Source of the DNA: Labilithrix sp.
Lineage (GTDB): Bacteria > Myxococcota_A > Polyangia > Polyangiales > Polyangiaceae
Direction of reading: 5' to 3'
Assembly: GCA_019637225.1 (NCBI GenBank)
Contig: JAHBWC010000017.1
Span: forward strand, 1 to 64,000
Length of the DNA stretch: 64,000 nt
Both the position numbers and the translations under genes were made by a program. Below are positions 22,696-55,470 of the stretch, piece by piece. The stretch's first letter is position 1, and each line of letters begins with the position of its first letter. The notes beneath the pieces were generated by a model. That model searched no databases. It saw only the letters and a list, made by a program, of their open reading frames with translations, and was not told the origin of the DNA.

Positions 22696-24741
<2,046 letters not shown>

Positions 24742-26388: not shown

Positions 26389-27945
26389 TCACGGCGACGG
26401 AGTTGGAAGTTGCGGCGCGCGCTTTCGCACGGTGATCGCCTTCGTGGACGGCTTCGTATCGTAGAGCTCCTCGTGGCCTCCTTGCACGAAGAGGTCGCCC
26501 GCGGCGAGCATGCCCGACACTGAACCGGTGCGGCCACCGACGATGCGCCGAACACCGTCCACGAGTGAATAGGCGAAGACGAGCCCGCAGACGGGGGGCT
26601 CGTTCACGCGTGCCTCCCGCTCGGCTGTGCTCTCGTCTTGGGGCACCACGTCGTCGATGGGCTCGGCGTAGTAGAGCAAGTCCGTTCCGACGAACGCCGC
26701 TTCGCGTTCCACCATGCCGGTCGGCCACGTGACGGCGAAGGCGCTGGTAGGAAGTGAACCAGGTTGGCTCGTGTCGAGCCGATTCACGATCCGACTCGGA
26801 TTTCGTTCATCGTATGCGAGATAGTAGATGAACGTGCCCAGGGCGCCGGGCGACCGAAAGAAACGACTGTTCGGCGTCGAGACGCCCCCGTCCGCCGGCT
26901 CGAGGTCCGTCGGCGAGACAGCGTACGACCCGTCGATGAGCATCAGCGCCTCTTGGGGAACGGCGACGTTCGACCAGCTCGGGGCACCCGCCGGGAAATC
27001 GAGGTAGCGAAACTCCCAGGTCGTGGCGTCCGGCGTGCGCCGGCTCATCCACGTCAGGCGTTGTTCCGACGCGACAGGAGCGAGCACCTCCGTCTCGAGG
27101 AAGGCGGGGTCGAGCTCCCATGTGTCCAGGTGGCGACGCCGCCACGCCGCTTCCCCCAGCGGAACGTAGAGAAGGTCGCCTCCGACGAAATAGGCCTTGG
27201 GATGGATCGGCGTGTTCGCGGCTGCGGTCAGCGGGTTCGGGACGAACATCGCGATCTCACCGAGCTCCTGCTGCGTCCGATCGGAGAGCGCGACACGGGT
27301 GAGATAGAAATGCGGATCGGCGCTGTAAGAGCCCGTTCGATGAACGAGAAAGAGGTGTGTGCCCGTGCTGTAGAGCGCGTAAGGCTGCCACGAAGAGTCC
27401 ACGGAAGCTGTGGCCGGAGTCGTGATGCGCACGATCGCCTCGCCCGCCTCGGGCCCCTCGAACGCCTCGCCCTGCAGTGGATCTCGCCAGAGCGTCAGCG
27501 TTGGCACCTGCGGTGGGATCTTGTCGAAGGTATCGTCGGCCTCCGCGCTGATCTCCGGGCTCGCGACCCAGTAGAGATGAGCTGCGTCGACGGCCACGAT
27601 GCCGTTGACGGCGTCGACCCCGAGCTGCCTGTCGATATTGTGGAAGTCCCCACACTTGTCGAGACAGATGCCGCTCGAGCAAATCATCCGCTCGGCCTCT
27701 GGGCACGGCGAATCGGACGAGCTTCGCTCGCATCGAAGCGCTCTCGAGTACGGACAGCGCACGGCTTCGTCGCAGCGAATGCGGCAGATGCCATTCGCGC
27801 ACGCGGCGTAGGCTGGGCACTCAGCCGAGCTCGCGCATGACGTGTACTCTGCAAGCTGGAGAGGAGCCGAGTCGCAGGCGGGAGCGATGAACGCAAGCCC
27901 GCCAAGGCTGGCGAGCAGCCCAGCCCAGATCAACCGCATCTTCAC
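26389..27945 (-). CDS. Cys-rich lipoprotein, last gene of the caspase operon
   Basis: A 518-residue protein with a lipoprotein-like start (LLASLGGLAFIAPAC). Residues about 25-95 hold some 14 Cys in patterns such as CASSAECPAYAACANGICRIRC and MICSSGICLDKC, typical of the Cys-rich N-termini of myxobacterial surface proteins. The rest is a beta-strand-rich domain with repeated units (VNGIVAVDAAHLYWVAS, SGTHLFLVHRT, FVGGDLLYVPLG, FVGTDLLYYAE) that look like blades of a beta-propeller. The GTG at 27945 has AAGGAG 5 bp upstream and overlaps the caspase gene's TGA (GTGA), so it is preferred to the ATG two codons later. Confidence 0.68.
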   Translation of the reverse strand: MKMRLIWAGLLASLGGLAFIAPACDSAPLQLAEYTSCASSAECPAYAACANGICRIRCDEAVRCPYSRALRCERSSSDSPCPEAERMICSSGICLDKCGDFHNIDRQLGVDAVNGIVAVDAAHLYWVASPEISAEADDTFDKIPPQVPTLTLWRDPLQGEAFEGPEAGEAIVRITTPATASVDSSWQPYALYSTGTHLFLVHRTGSYSADPHFYLTRVALSDRTQQELGEIAMFVPNPLTAAANTPIHPKAYFVGGDLLYVPLGEAAWRRRHLDTWELDPAFLETEVLAPVASEQRLTWMSRRTPDATTWEFRYLDFPAGAPSWSNVAVPQEALMLIDGSYAVSPTDLEPADGGVSTPNSRFFRSPGALGTFIYYLAYDERNPSRIVNRLDTSQPGSLPTSAFAVTWPTGMVEREAAFVGTDLLYYAEPIDDVVPQDESTAEREARVNEPPVCGLVFAYSLVDGVRRIVGGRTGSVSGMLAAGDLFVQGGHEELYDTKPSTKAITVRKRAPQLPTPSP

Positions 27946-29915
27946 GGCGTCTCCTTGGATTCGTTGGTGGCGAGGCCGTAGCGCGTACGCTGGTCTCTCC
28001 GACAGGCCTGATTGGGTTGGTAGGCGATGCCGAACGTCGCGCTGGCAGCCAAGTCCGTGAACGAACCGCTGAGCGGGCTGTCCAAGCTGATGCCGGCGAA
28101 CACCGGAAAATCGCAGGTGATGTGCACGTCCACGAGGGCCCCGCCGGTGAGGAACCCGTCGACGCCACCCGCGACGCGCAAGCCGGCAGGCTGATTGCCG
28201 ACCTGGAGGCCATCGACACCTGCGCCGATGTTCAACACGACGGCGGCCCTTCCGAGCGGCAGTCGAGGGCCCACGCGCCCAGCTGCGCGCAGCCAGGTCA
28301 GGCTGATGTCATCGACCGACGCGCGTACGCCCGGGAGTGTCGACCTGGGCGGAGTGCGAACGTCGGCGCTCAGCGCGGCGAGCCCGACCTCGCCCAAGGC
28401 CACGAACCAGCGGCTGACGAAGCCTCCATGCATGGCTCCGCCGACACCGCTGAAGCGAAGGTCGAGGCCTTCGTAGGTCGGTCGCGCCTCTTCGGCGACC
28501 TCGGGTCGAATCCCATAGCCGTCCGAGAAGCGTGTCGTCGGGATCCACACCGCGAGTCCAAGCCGAAACCCGTTCGGATTGCCGGACGGTCCGCGAAGCA
28601 GCGCCCCGTCGGCGCTCTCGAGCGCGCCACGAAGATCGACATCGACGCCGGCCTTCGCGACGAAGGACGTCTTCAGATCCCGACACCCCGGGACGCGGAC
28701 GACGACGCTGTGAGGCCCAGGCGCGATCGGGAAGGAGACGTGCTCGAGCCTGTCGAGGCCCGTCGTCGAGTCCCTCGTCTGCTTGCCTCCGTGCGCCGCG
28801 AGGGCCGTCGGGGAGCCATCGACGTACAAAGCGAGCCCGTGCTCGATGCTCCTCGGAGCGTCGCCTTCGCAGGTCACCGCGACCCTGAGCTGCGGTAGCT
28901 TCGGACCTTCTTCGACGGGGGGCTTCCACGTGTCGAGCTGACTACGGATCGTCGCGAGGCTCGGCGCCTTCTCGGTCGCTCCGCGCTCGAGGATCTCGTC
29001 ATCTGCGTCGGTGATAATCTGAGGATGTTGCTCGTGGTTGTTCGGGAGACTCCGGAGTACCAGGCTCGCGTACGCCTGCGCCTCGGCGACGGTGACGACC
29101 TGATCGCCGTTGGTGTCCGCCCATCCGCGGAGCGCTCCGAGGAGCAAGTAGCTCAACGCCGGTCGCATCGAGCCCGGCAGCGCGCCCGCGTACTCCGCCG
29201 CACTCCCTGCAGTGAAGACCGTCGTTGCCGATTCGGAGATGAGGTTCGTCGCCACCACCGGCTGCACTTGCGGGAGCAAGGTCTTGCCCTCGTTCGAGAC
29301 GCCGGAGAAGCACGCGTCGAGGACCAACACGGATCGGCTCTGCTTGCCCGTCTTCACGAGCTTCTGCAGATCGTCGTAGGGAACGCCGCGCGCGGTGAAG
29401 CTCGCGTCCGACGGCCGGACGTCGGCTCCCAGCAGGATGCCCTTCTTGCCCGCATCCGCCGGGGCACCATGCCCGATGAAGATGACGAACATCGTGCCGG
29501 ACTCGTCCATCCGCTCCGCGACGTCCTTGATACTCGCGACGATCGCGTCGGAGGTGGCGTTCTGATCGGTCAGCAACTTCACGCGATCGGGCGAGAGGTT
29601 GCGTCGAAGAAGAAAGTACTTCTCCCAGTCGCGAGCGTTGTCGGCGGCGCCCGGCACTCGCGGCAGCGCGTCGTAGCGATCGATGCCGATGATGACGGCG
29701 CCGTCCTTCGACGGCTCCGTGGCTGCTCCCTGGATGGGCGTGCCGAGGTCGGGCCAGAGGCCCGTCGTCGCCTGCGCGTTGGCCTCACGTGGGGCGAGCG
29801 TCGCAGCGAGCGCCAGCAGCGCTGCCGCCCAGGTACGGCCACGCTGCCAAGGCGCCCAGCTCACGGCTCGTCCGGCGCGCGCGAGGAGCGTCGGCCTCGA
29901 ATGACTCTTTTGCAC
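27942..29915 (-). CDS. secreted caspase-like (C14) protein with PEGA-like and beta-rich C-terminal domains
   Basis: A 657-residue protein. Signal peptide ends about residue 48 (AAALLALAATLAPREANAQ). The C14 domain (about 70-310) has the catalytic His149 in FVIFIGHGAP and Cys202 in LVLDACFSG, and the beginning AVIIGIDRYDALPRVPGAADNARDW is typical. DTNGDQVVTVAE (267-278) is an EF-hand-like loop. Residues about 345-430 look like a PEGA-type sheet (ALYVDGSP, APGPHSVVVRVPGC). The remaining 220 residues have alternating strands with Gly and aromatics, as in outer-membrane barrels. Caspase-like peptidases cut after Arg/Lys or Asp; specificity cannot be told. GTG start, 8 bp after the upstream lipoprotein gene. 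Confidence 0.85.
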   Translation of the reverse strand: MQKSHSRPTLLARAGRAVSWAPWQRGRTWAAALLALAATLAPREANAQATTGLWPDLGTPIQGAATEPSKDGAVIIGIDRYDALPRVPGAADNARDWEKYFLLRRNLSPDRVKLLTDQNATSDAIVASIKDVAERMDESGTMFVIFIGHGAPADAGKKGILLGADVRPSDASFTARGVPYDDLQKLVKTGKQSRSVLVLDACFSGVSNEGKTLLPQVQPVVATNLISESATTVFTAGSAAEYAGALPGSMRPALSYLLLGALRGWADTNGDQVVTVAEAQAYASLVLRSLPNNHEQHPQIITDADDEILERGATEKAPSLATIRSQLDTWKPPVEEGPKLPQLRVAVTCEGDAPRSIEHGLALYVDGSPTALAAHGGKQTRDSTTGLDRLEHVSFPIAPGPHSVVVRVPGCRDLKTSFVAKAGVDVDLRGALESADGALLRGPSGNPNGFRLGLAVWIPTTRFSDGYGIRPEVAEEARPTYEGLDLRFSGVGGAMHGGFVSRWFVALGEVGLAALSADVRTPPRSTLPGVRASVDDISLTWLRAAGRVGPRLPLGRAAVVLNIGAGVDGLQVGNQPAGLRVAGGVDGFLTGGALVDVHITCDFPVFAGISLDSPLSGSFTDLAASATFGIAYQPNQACRRDQRTRYGLATNESKETP

Positions 29916-29923
29916 GGTGTCGC

Positions 29924-31117
29924 CTAGCGCTTCGTCGCCTGCGTTACGGCTTCGCTCGCAGCGGTCTTGTCCTTCGGCGATACCGCGGCGCCCTTCGCCG
30001 CGGCGACCTCCTCGAGCGCCGCTGCGGCGGCATCCGCGAGCGCTGCGTTCGGCACGAAGGTGAGGATCTTGTAGACCGAGAGCCGCTCCGGGCTGTTCTC
30101 ACGCTCGACGCAGACCTTCTGCTGCTCGACCCGACTCGCAACACCCTTGGCGACGGAGCTCGTGAAGCGCTCGTCCTTGATGAGGCCCTTGGTCGTCGAC
30201 GAGAGCGCGCTGCTGCTCGTCTGGATATGCTCGCCGAGGTAACGCACCATCTGGGTGCGGGCGTCGTCCATGGCGCTCGATCGGCCCGAGCTCTCCTGGG
30301 GCGACGGCGCGGATACTCCGCAGAAGTAGATGCCGCTGTCGCTCTTCGGAATGTCGTTGCAGAACGCGCACGACTTCTCGAGCTGCTCCGCCTTTGCGTC
30401 CGCTTCCTTCTTCGCCGCGAGGTTCACGACGCCGGTGGTGACGGGCAAGAACGCGAAGTAGGTGTCGTTGAAGGAGTGGAGCTTCTTCCACTTGCTCGTA
30501 TCGCTGTACGCCGCGTTCGCGACGACCGGCGGGATCGCGACATCGGCCGAGCCGCTTCGGGCCGACTCGACCGCCGCGTAGATTTCGCCTGAGCCGCGGA
30601 GGAACTCGCCGACGACGAGGTTGGTGCACGCGCCGGGCGTCTTCGCGCAGCACGCCGAGAGCCCCTCCGCGTCCGTTTGCACCTGTACTTTCTTCGTGAT
30701 CTTGTAGCGGACGCGCAGGACACTGCCGCTCGAGGTGGCCCCTTGGCCCGTCGCGGCGGCTCCCGGTGCGGCCACGCCCATCGCCGCGCTCGCCTGATTC
30801 GACGCGTAGACGAGCTCGTCGAGCTCCTGGTTCACGCCGACTTCCTTCATCGTGAAGTACTTGCTGCAGACCGTCTGCGCCGCGCGGTTCTCGTCGAGCT
30901 CGGCGCCCACGACCTCCGCGGGCACGAAGCGGCCGACGTAGGTCGAGGGGTCGTCGTCGAATGCGGCACGAAGATGGAGATTTCGTGAAGGCGTCACGCC
31001 CTGGACCGACGTGGAGGACGGCGCGCTCGCCGGATCCGGGTTGGTCGCATTGGATCCTCCGCAGGCGACGGCGCCGAGCGAGACAATGACGAACGAGACA
31101 GCGGACGCAGTGCGCAT
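29924..31117 (-). CDS. lipoprotein in the caspase operon
   Basis: A 397-residue predicted lipoprotein (VSFVIVSLGAVACGGS, lipobox VAC). Mature part mixed alpha/beta with a SACCAKTPGACTNLVVGEFLRG segment and an FCNDIP motif, seven Cys in total, and an Ala-rich coiled-coil-like C-terminus (ADAAAAALEEVAAAKGAAV). A segment SGRSSAMDDARTQMVRYLGEHIQTSSSAL resembles the helical region of LPP20/flagellar-assembly-type lipoproteins, but the match is weak and no name is offered. It is 41 bp after the DUF4384 gene and 8 bp before the caspase gene, so almost certainly in the same operon. Confidence 0.65.
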   Translation of the reverse strand: MRTASAVSFVIVSLGAVACGGSNATNPDPASAPSSTSVQGVTPSRNLHLRAAFDDDPSTYVGRFVPAEVVGAELDENRAAQTVCSKYFTMKEVGVNQELDELVYASNQASAAMGVAAPGAAATGQGATSSGSVLRVRYKITKKVQVQTDAEGLSACCAKTPGACTNLVVGEFLRGSGEIYAAVESARSGSADVAIPPVVANAAYSDTSKWKKLHSFNDTYFAFLPVTTGVVNLAAKKEADAKAEQLEKSCAFCNDIPKSDSGIYFCGVSAPSPQESSGRSSAMDDARTQMVRYLGEHIQTSSSALSSTTKGLIKDERFTSSVAKGVASRVEQQKVCVERENSPERLSVYKILTFVPNAALADAAAAALEEVAAAKGAAVSPKDKTAASEAVTQATKR

Positions 31118-31158: not shown

Positions 31159-32586
31159 TCAGCGTGGACAGATCGGGACCCGAGCGAGGGCGGAGAGCGC
31201 CGCTTTCTGGCGCTCGGCCGACGGAGGCCGCGGGCAGCTTCCGCCGGTGAGGACGCGGTAGCCGGTGACCGCGGTCCGGGCTCCAGGCGGGAGGTTCGCG
31301 CCGCGGTGGAGAGCGTCGCCCTCTGCGGGTGCGAGTCGGCAGGTCTCCTTGACCGCCGCGAAGCGCCCGAGCCCGGCGGGCGTGGGCGAGGCGATGACGA
31401 GATAGCGTTCGTCTTCCATTCCCGGCAGCGGGAACGCCTCGAAGCCGCTCTCATCGCCGAGAGGGATCGTCTTTCCAGCGGAAACGACGTCGCTCCGACC
31501 TTGCGTTGGAAACAGCAGGATCGCGCCGTCGGTACCGTAGAGATCGAAGACGCGCACGTGGAGCGTCTCCGTCGTCTTGAGCCACAGCTGCGTCGTCTCA
31601 CCCGCGCAGATGCTCCCGTGATGGTCGCTATCCATGCTCAGGAATAGCCCCTCCGACGTGGGGAGCGCAGGCGGTGGCGTGGGAGGCGGACGCGGCGCGG
31701 CCGCTTCGGGGAAGGAGCCGCTCGAGATCTCGAGCTGGCGTCCGTCCGGCGCGTAGCCCGTCCAGGAGACGTCGACGCGCGGCATCTGCACGCCGCCACG
31801 CTTGAAGAGGCGCCCCACGACGACGAGATCGAAGCCATCGGGTGCCGGCTCCGGGGCCGCCCAAGCCTTGGGTCGAGGGAGGACTCCGCCGATGCTCGTG
31901 AATCCCGTCTTGAAGCGTGATGCGAGCCAGTCGGCTCGCCGTCCACCTGCGAGCTGGTTGCGAGATGGCCCGACGTCGTGGTCGTCGTAGACGGCGGCGA
32001 GAGCGATGCGCGCCGGGCCGGCGATCGGCCGCCGTCCGGCGCGCGAAGCGCTCGCTTGGATGAACTGCGCCGCATCGGCCACGAGCTTGCTGTCGAACGC
32101 CGCGAGGTCGCTCGCGAGGCGGGTCCACTCCTCGATGTGCTGTCGTTTCACGACGGCGGAAGCGCACGTGTCACGTCCGTTCGAGCCGGTCCTCCACGGC
32201 TCGATATGGGTCGCGAGAAACGCACACGCGTCGGCCGCAGCCGCATCGCGCTCGGCGTTGACGCAAATGCGTGCTCGGAGGCGCTGTTGGGCGGCCTGGA
32301 TGGCATTGTCGAGCGCGTGCGGTTGGTTGGCTGGAAACGCCGCGATCTCCGTCTTCCAGCCCGGTGCGATCTCGGGAGGATCGCCGAGGCATGTCCACCC
32401 GGACGACGTGGGCAGGACGGGGTCCGGCGATCCGCTCCGCGCGGGCGAGGCGCTTTTCTGCGATGCCGCGCGCGGCGTCGGCGTGGCCTCCGACGCGCGG
32501 CTGCAGCCCACGCCCAACATCACGAGCAGAGCGGCCCCAGCCGCTGCTCGGCGGGCGCGCGTGTGCACGACTTCCTTCTCCTCCAC
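31159..32586 (-). CDS. DUF4384-like lipoprotein, first gene of the caspase operon
   Basis: A 475-residue predicted lipoprotein with signal AAAGAALLVMLGVGCS. The middle is Ala-rich helical with two short Cys-containing segments. The C-terminal part (about 325-430) has the DUF4384 pattern: LWLKTTETLHVRVFDLYGTDGAILLFPTQG with the Leu-Phe-Pro core, then TIPLGDESGFEAFPLPG and YLVIASPTP. DUF4384 often accompanies secreted caspases and lipoproteins. Start choice is open: GTG at 32586 is given, but GTG at 32568, preceded by GGAGGAGAAGG, would give the same signal peptide. Confidence 0.68.
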   Translation of the reverse strand: MEEKEVVHTRARRAAAGAALLVMLGVGCSRASEATPTPRAASQKSASPARSGSPDPVLPTSSGWTCLGDPPEIAPGWKTEIAAFPANQPHALDNAIQAAQQRLRARICVNAERDAAAADACAFLATHIEPWRTGSNGRDTCASAVVKRQHIEEWTRLASDLAAFDSKLVADAAQFIQASASRAGRRPIAGPARIALAAVYDDHDVGPSRNQLAGGRRADWLASRFKTGFTSIGGVLPRPKAWAAPEPAPDGFDLVVVGRLFKRGGVQMPRVDVSWTGYAPDGRQLEISSGSFPEAAAPRPPPTPPPALPTSEGLFLSMDSDHHGSICAGETTQLWLKTTETLHVRVFDLYGTDGAILLFPTQGRSDVVSAGKTIPLGDESGFEAFPLPGMEDERYLVIASPTPAGLGRFAAVKETCRLAPAEGDALHRGANLPPGARTAVTGYRVLTGGSCPRPPSAERQKAALSALARVPICPR

Positions 32587-32811: not shown

Positions 32812-33957
32812 CTACTCGAGGCCCCGCATCGCAACGCCCGTGAGGAGGACGCGAACGAGGTCGGCCTGGCGGCTCGTGCCCGTCTTTTCGAGGATGCGCT
32901 TCAGATGCGTACGCGCGGTGTCCTCGCTGCAACCGCGCTTGGATGCGAAGTTCGCCAGCGTATGCCCCTCGGCGATGGCGCACGCCAGCAACGCCTCGGT
33001 CGCGGTGAGCCCGTAGACGCTCGCGACCGTGTTGGGCTTCAACCGGACGTGCTGCTCGGGATCATGAAAGAGGGCGATCACGCGCACCGCGCGAGATGTA
33101 TCGCGTAGCGCGCTCTGCGGGCGGAGCGCGAAGAGGACGACGGCGATAGGCTCCTTGCCTAGGCGTGCAATGGAGATCGGGGGCACGATCGGCGCGGCCC
33201 CCGACGAGGCGTTCGAGTGGATCGCGGTCTGCGCGATCGCTCCCGCGAGCGCGCGCGCATCGGACAATCGCGACGCCGTCAGCTTGCCGTGCGCGGTGTG
33301 GACGCCGTTGCGCTCGCGGAACAGCGCCTCGGCGCGCGTGTTGGCGCATACGACCTTGCCCGTCGAGTCCAGCACGGCGCTCGCTGCAGGGAGGAAGTCG
33401 AGCGCGCGTCGAAGATCGACGAGCTCCTCGCGCATCGATCGAACGAGATGACGTAGCTGCACGGCTCGACGGAGGTGCGGAATGAGCGACATCACAGCGG
33501 CGATCTCGGCTGGAGAAAAGGGCCCGAGGCGCCTGCCGCGAATGAATGCCTGCGCGAGAACGAGACCGTCGGCGAGAGGGAAGGCGCCGAAGGTCGTGTA
33601 GTAGCTGTCGCTCCTCAGCAGGTAGTCGTTGAAGATCGCCGAGCGTTCGAACGCCCTGCGGTCGATGTCGATCGTGTCGGAGAGGAGGACGCCAGGACGC
33701 TCATGGGCGGCGAAGAAGCGTGGGTCCTGGTCCCGCCAATCGAAGTACGACGCGAACTCACTCTCGTCGGCTCCCGTGAAGCCATGCTCCACCAGCTCGG
33801 TGCCGCCAGCGATGACGAGTGATTGCCCGTACGGAGCGCCGGCGTGGGCGGAGAGCTCCGCGAGGACCCCGGCGACCCCCTCCGGCTCGTCCGCGGTGTC
33901 ATAGATCCGCTGGACGAGCTGATCGCGGTCCAGTGAAGACGAAATGCGACGCGTCAT
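32812..33957 (-). CDS. LuxR-family transcriptional regulator
   Basis: A 381-residue regulator. The C-terminus (about 315-378; GLTATEALLACAIAEGHTLANFASKRGCSEDTARTHLKRILEKTG) is a LuxR-type helix-turn-helix. The N-terminal 190 residues are an unknown sensory module, and residues about 190-215 (LDFLPAASAVLDSTGKVVCANTRAEALF) look like the start of a PAS domain. It lacks a receiver domain. It is 225 bp upstream of the DUF4384 gene and on the same strand, so it may be the regulator of the caspase operon; no operator can be defined by eye. Confidence 0.85.
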   Translation of the reverse strand: MTRRISSSLDRDQLVQRIYDTADEPEGVAGVLAELSAHAGAPYGQSLVIAGGTELVEHGFTGADESEFASYFDWRDQDPRFFAAHERPGVLLSDTIDIDRRAFERSAIFNDYLLRSDSYYTTFGAFPLADGLVLAQAFIRGRRLGPFSPAEIAAVMSLIPHLRRAVQLRHLVRSMREELVDLRRALDFLPAASAVLDSTGKVVCANTRAEALFRERNGVHTAHGKLTASRLSDARALAGAIAQTAIHSNASSGAAPIVPPISIARLGKEPIAVVLFALRPQSALRDTSRAVRVIALFHDPEQHVRLKPNTVASVYGLTATEALLACAIAEGHTLANFASKRGCSEDTARTHLKRILEKTGTSRQADLVRVLLTGVAMRGLE

Positions 33958-39506: not shown

Positions 39507-39770
39507 ATGGGCGACCCTGCCGTCGATGCCGCGCTGAAGCAGGCGAGCGACGAGCTCGGCCTCGAAGCGTGGTACCGCGACTGCGTCCGCCCGCTCCTCC
39601 GGAGCGGCCCGGCCGGCTACCCGAGCTGCTGCGGCGGCGGCTGCGAGCCGTGCAGCCAGATCCTCGTGCAGGTCGCCGATCGCGTCCTCGAGCTGCTCGG
39701 ACGCGATCGCGTCGAAGACCCCGCCGAGGCGCCGCCGAGCGTCGCGTCCGCGCCGCCGCGAAGTGCCTGA
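39507..39770 (+). CDS. small Cys-rich protein with CCGGGCEPC motif
   Basis: 87 residues. Core YPSCCGGGCEPCSQILVQVADRVLELLG: four Cys in CCxxxCxxC form, followed by an amphipathic helix. The motif resembles the CCGxGCxxC element of oxidoreductase-like domain proteins and could bind a metal or form disulfides; no function is assigned. The C-terminus is Pro/Ala-rich. It interrupts the otherwise universal nusG-rplK neighbourhood, 43 bp after nusG. Confidence 0.65.
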   Translation: MGDPAVDAALKQASDELGLEAWYRDCVRPLLRSGPAGYPSCCGGGCEPCSQILVQVADRVLELLGRDRVEDPAEAPPSVASAPPRSA

Positions 39771-54879: not shown

Positions 54880-55239
54880 CTACGGCTCGGCGATGGTTCG
54901 GACGCGAGGAGGGCGCCCAGGCTCGACGACGACGAACTTCCCGCCCATGTCGGGGTGCGCGTCGAGCGCAGACATCGCAAGCTCCGCGATCACGTCGGAG
55001 CGATGGGCACGCACGAGGATGACGCCGTGCACCGCGAGGCTTGGAGCCGTTGAAAGCGCGAGCTCGCCGAAGTCCTTGTCGCTCGTCACGATCACGCGTG
55101 CGTCGACGGCGGCGCGCCCAAGCACGTCGGTATCTGGGAGCGACGGAGCGTCTTCGGCGATCCAAGCGACGTCATGACCAGCGGCCCGCATCGCGGCGAC
55201 GGCCTCGTCCGGCATGTTTTCGTCCGCGAGGATCCGCAC
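54880..55239 (-). CDS. DUF5615 PIN-like protein, probable toxin
   Basis: 119 residues. MRILADENMPDEAVAAMRAAGHDVAWI begins the family; acidic residues in LADEN, the D-T-D-V-L segment (SLPDTDVLGRAAVDARVIVTSDKDFGEL) and the C-terminal strand fit the PIN nuclease-like active site. DUF5615 proteins pair with DUF433 proteins as toxin-antitoxin-like modules. GTG start, 3 bp after the DUF433 stop. The C-terminus is Pro/Arg-rich (EPGRPPRVRTI). Confidence 0.82.
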   Translation of the reverse strand: MRILADENMPDEAVAAMRAAGHDVAWIAEDAPSLPDTDVLGRAAVDARVIVTSDKDFGELALSTAPSLAVHGVILVRAHRSDVIAELAMSALDAHPDMGGKFVVVEPGRPPRVRTIAEP

Positions 55240-55242
55240 GAG

Positions 55243-55470
55243 CTAGGCTGCGGACGGGTGAGCCTGCTTGACGACGCCCATGGCGTACGCGACGCAGGCG
55301 CGGACGTCCTCGCGGCTCAGGCGCGGGTAGCTCTTGCAGATCGCGTCCTCCCCCATTCCCTCCGCGATCATGCCGAGCACATGCTCAACGGAGATGCGCG
55401 TTCCCCGCACCGTGGGCTTGCCGCCGAGAACGTTTGGATCGCAGACGACGCGCTCGGAATCGTTCACCAT
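55243..55470 (-). CDS. DUF433 protein, probable antitoxin
   Basis: 75 residues. The motif DPNVLGGKPTVRGTRISVEHVLGMIAEGM, then ICKSYPRLSREDVRACVAYA, is the DUF433 signature with a helix-turn-helix-like fold. It precedes the DUF5615 gene by 3 bp, the usual antitoxin-first order. Possibly autoregulating. The promoter should lie in 55471-55534, before R3. Confidence 0.88.
   Translation of the reverse strand: MVNDSERVVCDPNVLGGKPTVRGTRISVEHVLGMIAEGMGEDAICKSYPRLSREDVRACVAYAMGVVKQAHPSAA

Follow-up and report, generated by a model that had tools for sequence, protein, structure and literature searches.

A predicted exported caspase homologue with a candidate outer-membrane barrel tail in Labilithrix

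The window, our term for the whole 64,000-nucleotide stretch of Labilithrix sp. DNA analyzed here, encodes a 657-residue protein in which a signal peptide and a caspase-like domain are followed by a strand-rich tail. This gene and those around it are as follows.

27942..29915, minus strand: caspase-barrel gene, 657 aa; signal peptide, caspase (C14), beta-sandwich and predicted eight-stranded barrel (open reading frame, Pfam, structure prediction)
26389..27945, minus strand: exported Cys-rich protein; its start overlaps the caspase-barrel stop by 4 bp
29924..31117, minus strand: partner 1, a lipoprotein of no assigned family, 8 bp upstream of the caspase-barrel gene
31159..32586, minus strand: partner 2, a DUF4384-type lipoprotein (weak Pfam match in the window; homologue in genome G015 above the cut-off)
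32812..33957, minus strand: LuxR-type regulator, upstream of the operon; a homologue lies beside a caspase of clade W (see below) in genome G021

The caspase-barrel frame starts with GTG at 29915 and runs to 27942 on the minus strand, confirming the exported caspase-like protein that a preliminary description had placed there. The frame is unbroken and packed tightly between its neighbors. Its contig measures 102 kb and belongs to a metagenome-assembled genome (MAG) of 8.2 Mb (83% complete, 182 contigs). The N-terminal half of the protein carries the following features.

29769..29915, minus strand: signal peptide, residues 1-49 (inspection)
29001..29708, minus strand: caspase domain, residues ∼70-305 (Pfam C14, clade alignment, metacaspase structures by profile)
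29637..29639, minus strand: Asn93, aligned with the S1-pocket Asp95 of metacaspase TbMCA2
29469..29471, minus strand: catalytic His149, motif FIGHGAP, invariant in 33/33 W members
29310..29312, minus strand: catalytic Cys202, motif LDACFSG, invariant in 33/33 W members
29082..29117, minus strand: EF-hand-type loop, residues 267-278 (clade alignment)

By inspection, the N-terminus reads as a signal peptide of type I, with a start rich in Arg, the core AALLALAATLA, and then ANA-QA, as had been proposed; it supplies the export signal required of an eight-stranded outer-membrane barrel. A signal peptide or lipobox is also found at the N-terminus of all W relatives in the order. Pfam C14 (PF00656) matches residues 73-231 (E 8.1e-9; 35.9 bits against a gathering cut-off of 21.4), and the nearest NCBIfam model, caspase_w_EACC1, scores under its cut-off. 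A few genomes within the order encode caspase domains 31-41% identical to that of the window protein. These domains belong to what we define here as clade W, a large clade of exported Myxococcota caspases with 100/100 support against the other caspases of the order. A W profile built from eight caspase relatives matched solved metacaspases (yeast-type Metacaspase-1, E 9e-5) and found strong relatives (E<=1e-30) in 83 of 377 phylum genomes, often several per genome. A search of viral contigs for caspase relatives found none.

The preliminary description had called His149 and Cys202 intact, and both stand at exactly those positions. The dyad is kept in every orthologue examined (33/33 W members), although for most of these the reading frame was chosen with the dyad as a criterion. 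Three W loci that failed the dyad pattern proved on direct reading to contain it too, so no member was left out of the 33. The protein shares with metacaspases and orthocaspases (PF00656) the His/Cys dyad, the GHG and DxCxSG motifs, and significant profile matches; it differs in being exported, in having Asn at the Asp95 position, and in its envelope anchor. The assignment as an exported caspase homologue, a predicted C14 peptidase, is supported by these comparisons.

The putative S1 pocket is altered. In TbMCA2, a basic P1 residue is accommodated by Asp95 and Asp211 (PMC6426788). Asp211 corresponds to D200 of the window protein, two residues N-terminal to Cys202 and invariant in 33/33 W members. 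Sequence alignment consistently suggests N93 as the counterpart of Asp95: the position is Asn in 32/33 W members but acidic in the J, Q, and R caspase rows. The two acidic residues associated with metacaspase-type Arg/Lys specificity are therefore not both present, and because the change runs through 32/33 members, an Arg/Lys preference should not be assumed. Of the substrate range entertained in the preliminary description, the Arg/Lys part is now doubtful: one S1 Asp is kept, but the other is Asn across the clade. This same substitution would suit a pseudoenzyme, a caspase fold serving as an envelope scaffold or binding protein with little or no proteolysis, and several bacterial caspase homologues are indeed pseudo-variants (PMC6426788). 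Against this stands the invariance of His, Cys, and the Asp before Cys throughout the 33 sequences, and we regard a loss of catalysis as unlikely.

The EF-hand-like loop had also been noted earlier and is present as DTNGDQVVTVAE. It is largely kept across the clade (D267 in 28/33, D271 in 27/33, E278 in 29/33). Calcium is usually high outside the cytoplasm, which makes a role for it as a switch doubtful; calcium bound in this loop would probably be structural.

The remainder of the protein, residues 325-657, matched no family in Pfam or NCBIfam scans. Structure prediction divides it into two parts.

28623..28895, minus strand: small beta-sandwich, PEGA/transthyretin-like, residues ∼341-431, with invariant Cys349 and Cys411 (structure prediction, weak fold match)
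28008..28592, minus strand: predicted eight-stranded outer-membrane barrel, residues ∼442-636, with invariant Cys601 and, just beyond it, Cys638 (structure prediction, fold comparison)

AlphaFold2 on the tail gave six short strands, forming the small sandwich, and then eight long ones (449-463, 485-500, 504-520, 534-554, 557-574, 585-598, 604-614, and 623-632). The input was a four-sequence alignment, shallow because the contig search yielded only three loci; confidence was 75-90 in most strands, with a mean pLDDT of 68 over the module. A full-length run returned the same eight strands, with the caspase part at low confidence. In fold comparison, the tail model matched mostly outer-membrane barrels (OmpA, OmpW, OprF, and Legionella porin III) at Z ∼14-15 (maximum 15.4) over residues ∼440-636. 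For the full-length model, only barrels were among the matches listed, a search uninformative on the low-confidence caspase part. A closed eight-stranded barrel is thus indicated by both predicted structure and fold match, which backs a barrel previously proposed from strand pattern; neither of the two runs lacked it. The window barrel shares the OmpA/OmpW/OprF fold but differs from these proteins in its low identity to them (6-10%), in its C-terminal place behind a caspase, and in lacking a terminal aromatic signal.

The “PEGA-like sheet” of the preliminary description survives as a separate small domain at ∼341-431, but Pfam PEGA (PF08308) found no match in residues 325-657. The sandwich’s own fold match is weak (human carboxypeptidase N, Z 7.6, inside the noise band). 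True PEGA repeats precede the tail module in its relatives. Elsewhere in the window, a Ser/Thr protein kinase gene (22696-24741, minus strand) has PEGA repeats at its C-terminus, and in genome G050, a kinase-like gene adjoins the tail module gene.

In the predicted barrel, strands 2, 4, and 6 are followed by short turns and strands 1, 3, 5, and 7 by longer ones. Such alternation is the usual pattern of an outer-membrane barrel whose two ends both lie on the periplasmic side. On this topology, Cys601 (in turn 6-7) and Cys638 (after strand 8) would lie on the same, periplasmic side. Together with Cys349 and Cys411, they show no variation across eight sequences drawn from seven genomes, marking the tail as a coherent unit, and the four may form two disulfides, as expected in an exported protein. 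Hydrophobic alternation in the strands gave p = 0.01 on alignment means and p = 0.24 on the window sequence alone. The protein ends ...ATNESKETP and has no C-terminal aromatic beta-signal, since the last strand, SATFGIAY, is internal and followed by a 25-residue tail.

A passenger placed before a C-terminal barrel is also the order of autotransporters, and barrels of this kind rank low among the fold matches. The barrel might, accordingly, carry the caspase to the cell surface, where the protease would face outward or be shed. However, the prediction has eight strands and not the 12 of a classical (type Va) autotransporter, the best fold matches are OmpA, OmpW, and OprF, and the linker is predicted to contain disulfides. 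Neither a folded nor an unfolded caspase is likely to fit through so narrow a pore. We set this reading aside on strand count and consider it very unlikely.

We searched 183 genomes of the order for the tail module (residues 335-657) and found it in six others. In four (G050, G110, G005, and G153, where one copy is cut by a contig end), it lies behind tetratricopeptide (TPR) and PEGA repeats; in two (G099 and G049), it follows a signal peptide alone. The tails of the TPR-PEGA proteins are homologous to the window tail (30-37% identical), but the cargo before them contains no caspase. A tail profile run against 377 phylum genomes gave no full-length match outside the order.

W caspase and tail module both occur among the 183 order genomes, but a second gene joining them was not found there, and this particular fusion is known from one MAG. 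Other W caspases share export, motifs, and a caspase domain 31-41% identical to the window’s; they differ in ending with a transmembrane hairpin, FGE-sulfatase-type domains, other barrel-like tails, or nothing, and some carry MORN-type repeats N-terminally (domains by inspection). From these comparisons, the best interpretation of the window protein is a W caspase in which the barrel module replaced the usual tail. The single MAG and the shallow alignment leave some room for a different account, in which the tail forms a barrel that is soluble or lipocalin-like, leaving the protein periplasmic or secreted, or in which the fusion is an assembly error. The missing aromatic C-terminus and a match to a soluble polyisoprenoid-binding barrel (Z 8.5) point the same way. 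Membrane barrels score far higher, at Z 14-15, however; the open reading frame runs without a break, with its neighbors close on either side; and relatives of the tail have the same conserved Cys and strand pattern. We judge this account quite unlikely.

The preliminary description had regarded an outer-membrane-anchored caspase as unusual, but by sequence pattern, barrel-like tails recur on exported caspases in the phylum. The same genome encodes a second exported caspase (L001, G000:C108:11296-13167), which is of the DACQSG type and has a sandwich and a barrel-like tail of its own. It belongs to a family, R/Q, defined here by the motifs GHA and DAC[RQ]SG; 62 of 183 order genomes contain matches, some of which extend over the caspase part alone. 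The members whose whole sequence was read show the part order of the window protein: signal peptide, caspase, beta-sandwich, and strand-rich tail. Their caspases, however, belong to another clade, as starred branches of the caspase tree separate W from R/Q. R tails and Q tails are mutually related, but neither kind shows significant profile similarity to the window tail, a comparison that distant kinship could escape. Most R tails also differ from the window’s in their last residue, which is F or W in 11/18 and F, W, or L in 17/18; among 197 other proteins, the C-terminal residue is F, W, or Y in 6% and F, W, Y, or L in 13%. The R-type ends fit an outer-membrane beta-signal. Four W caspases from other Myxococcota families (L140, L141, L150, and L160) likewise have barrel-like tails unrelated to the window’s, and L141 matches the Q-tail profile at 2e-8. 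Taken together, the tails suggest that several distinct means of attaching an exported caspase to the cell envelope have arisen in myxobacteria.

The gene neighborhood adds candidate partners. The genes for partners 2 and 1 lie 41 bp apart and read in the same direction as the caspase-barrel gene. Homologues of both stand beside a W caspase in G021, in the same gene order with an RCC1-type lipoprotein gene between. In G110, they directly follow a J-type exported caspase (L133, 4412-8400), there in an order unlike the window’s: J-type caspase lipoprotein, DUF4384-type lipoprotein, partner 1 homologue. In G015, they occur as a pair. Fusions to DUF4384 are also reported for 23 cyanobacterial orthocaspases (PMC8283722). 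Since the partners recur beside exported caspases and DUF4384 is found fused to orthocaspases, the operon is likely a functional cassette. Compared with solved structures, partner 1 gave only chance-level cytochrome b562 matches. For the exported Cys-rich protein downstream, no homologue was found in the order, and a comparison gave no support to kinship with the propeller-like lipoproteins beside other tail modules. Another Cys-rich frame in the window (39507-39770, plus strand; 87 aa; PSCCGGGCEPC) shows coding-like codon use between NusG-like and L11-like genes. At 54880-55470 (minus strand), two small adjacent genes resemble, by eye, a DUF5615 PIN-like/DUF433 pair of toxin-antitoxin type.

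The reading we favor, and hold to be somewhat probable as a whole, is an exported C14 cysteine protease tethered to the outer membrane on its periplasmic side. The signal peptide would take the protein across the inner membrane, and the last 200 residues, predicted to form an eight-stranded OmpA-like barrel, would insert in the outer membrane. With both barrel ends facing the periplasm, the caspase would hang into that compartment on the small disulfide-bonded beta-sandwich. There it would cleave a specific envelope protein, and the two co-encoded lipoproteins, one of DUF4384 type, may, from their gene association, act as partner, sensor, or inhibitor. Comparison suggests as its origin a W-clade caspase whose usual tail was swapped for a module that elsewhere may anchor TPR/PEGA proteins. 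That the module follows signal peptides in other proteins too counts for the model; the shallow alignment, the low-confidence caspase model, p = 0.24, the missing aromatic end, and the single MAG count against it.

The caspase relatives of bacteria are treated chiefly as enzymes that act inside the cell, in stress and programmed cell death. A 2012 survey of caspase homologues in prokaryotes reports numerous N-terminal helices, possibly signal peptides, and places M. xanthus caspases in sigma-factor operons (PMC3501461). A search by term of the caspase homologue surveys covered found no PEGA or barrel-anchored form, and nothing relevant to outer-membrane or periplasmic caspases appeared in the literature covered, with most subscription journals and preprints outside that coverage. 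If the model is right, an outer-membrane tether brings caspase chemistry to the periplasm. Its function there would have to lie in surveying the envelope, maturing surface proteins, interacting with kin or prey, or lysing from the outside inward. The recurrent fusions and the clade-wide Asp-to-Asn S1 change lend themselves to direct biochemical tests. The wider pattern of envelope-tied caspases is of more interest than the single gene. We give about an even chance that Myxococcota possess a class of envelope caspases not yet described. Its members would be exported C14 proteases with interchangeable inner- and outer-membrane anchors, the S1 pocket being altered in the W clade and some members having DUF4384 lipoprotein partners, and they would act as proteolytic switches in the periplasm, unlike the cytoplasmic metacaspases that have been studied to date.
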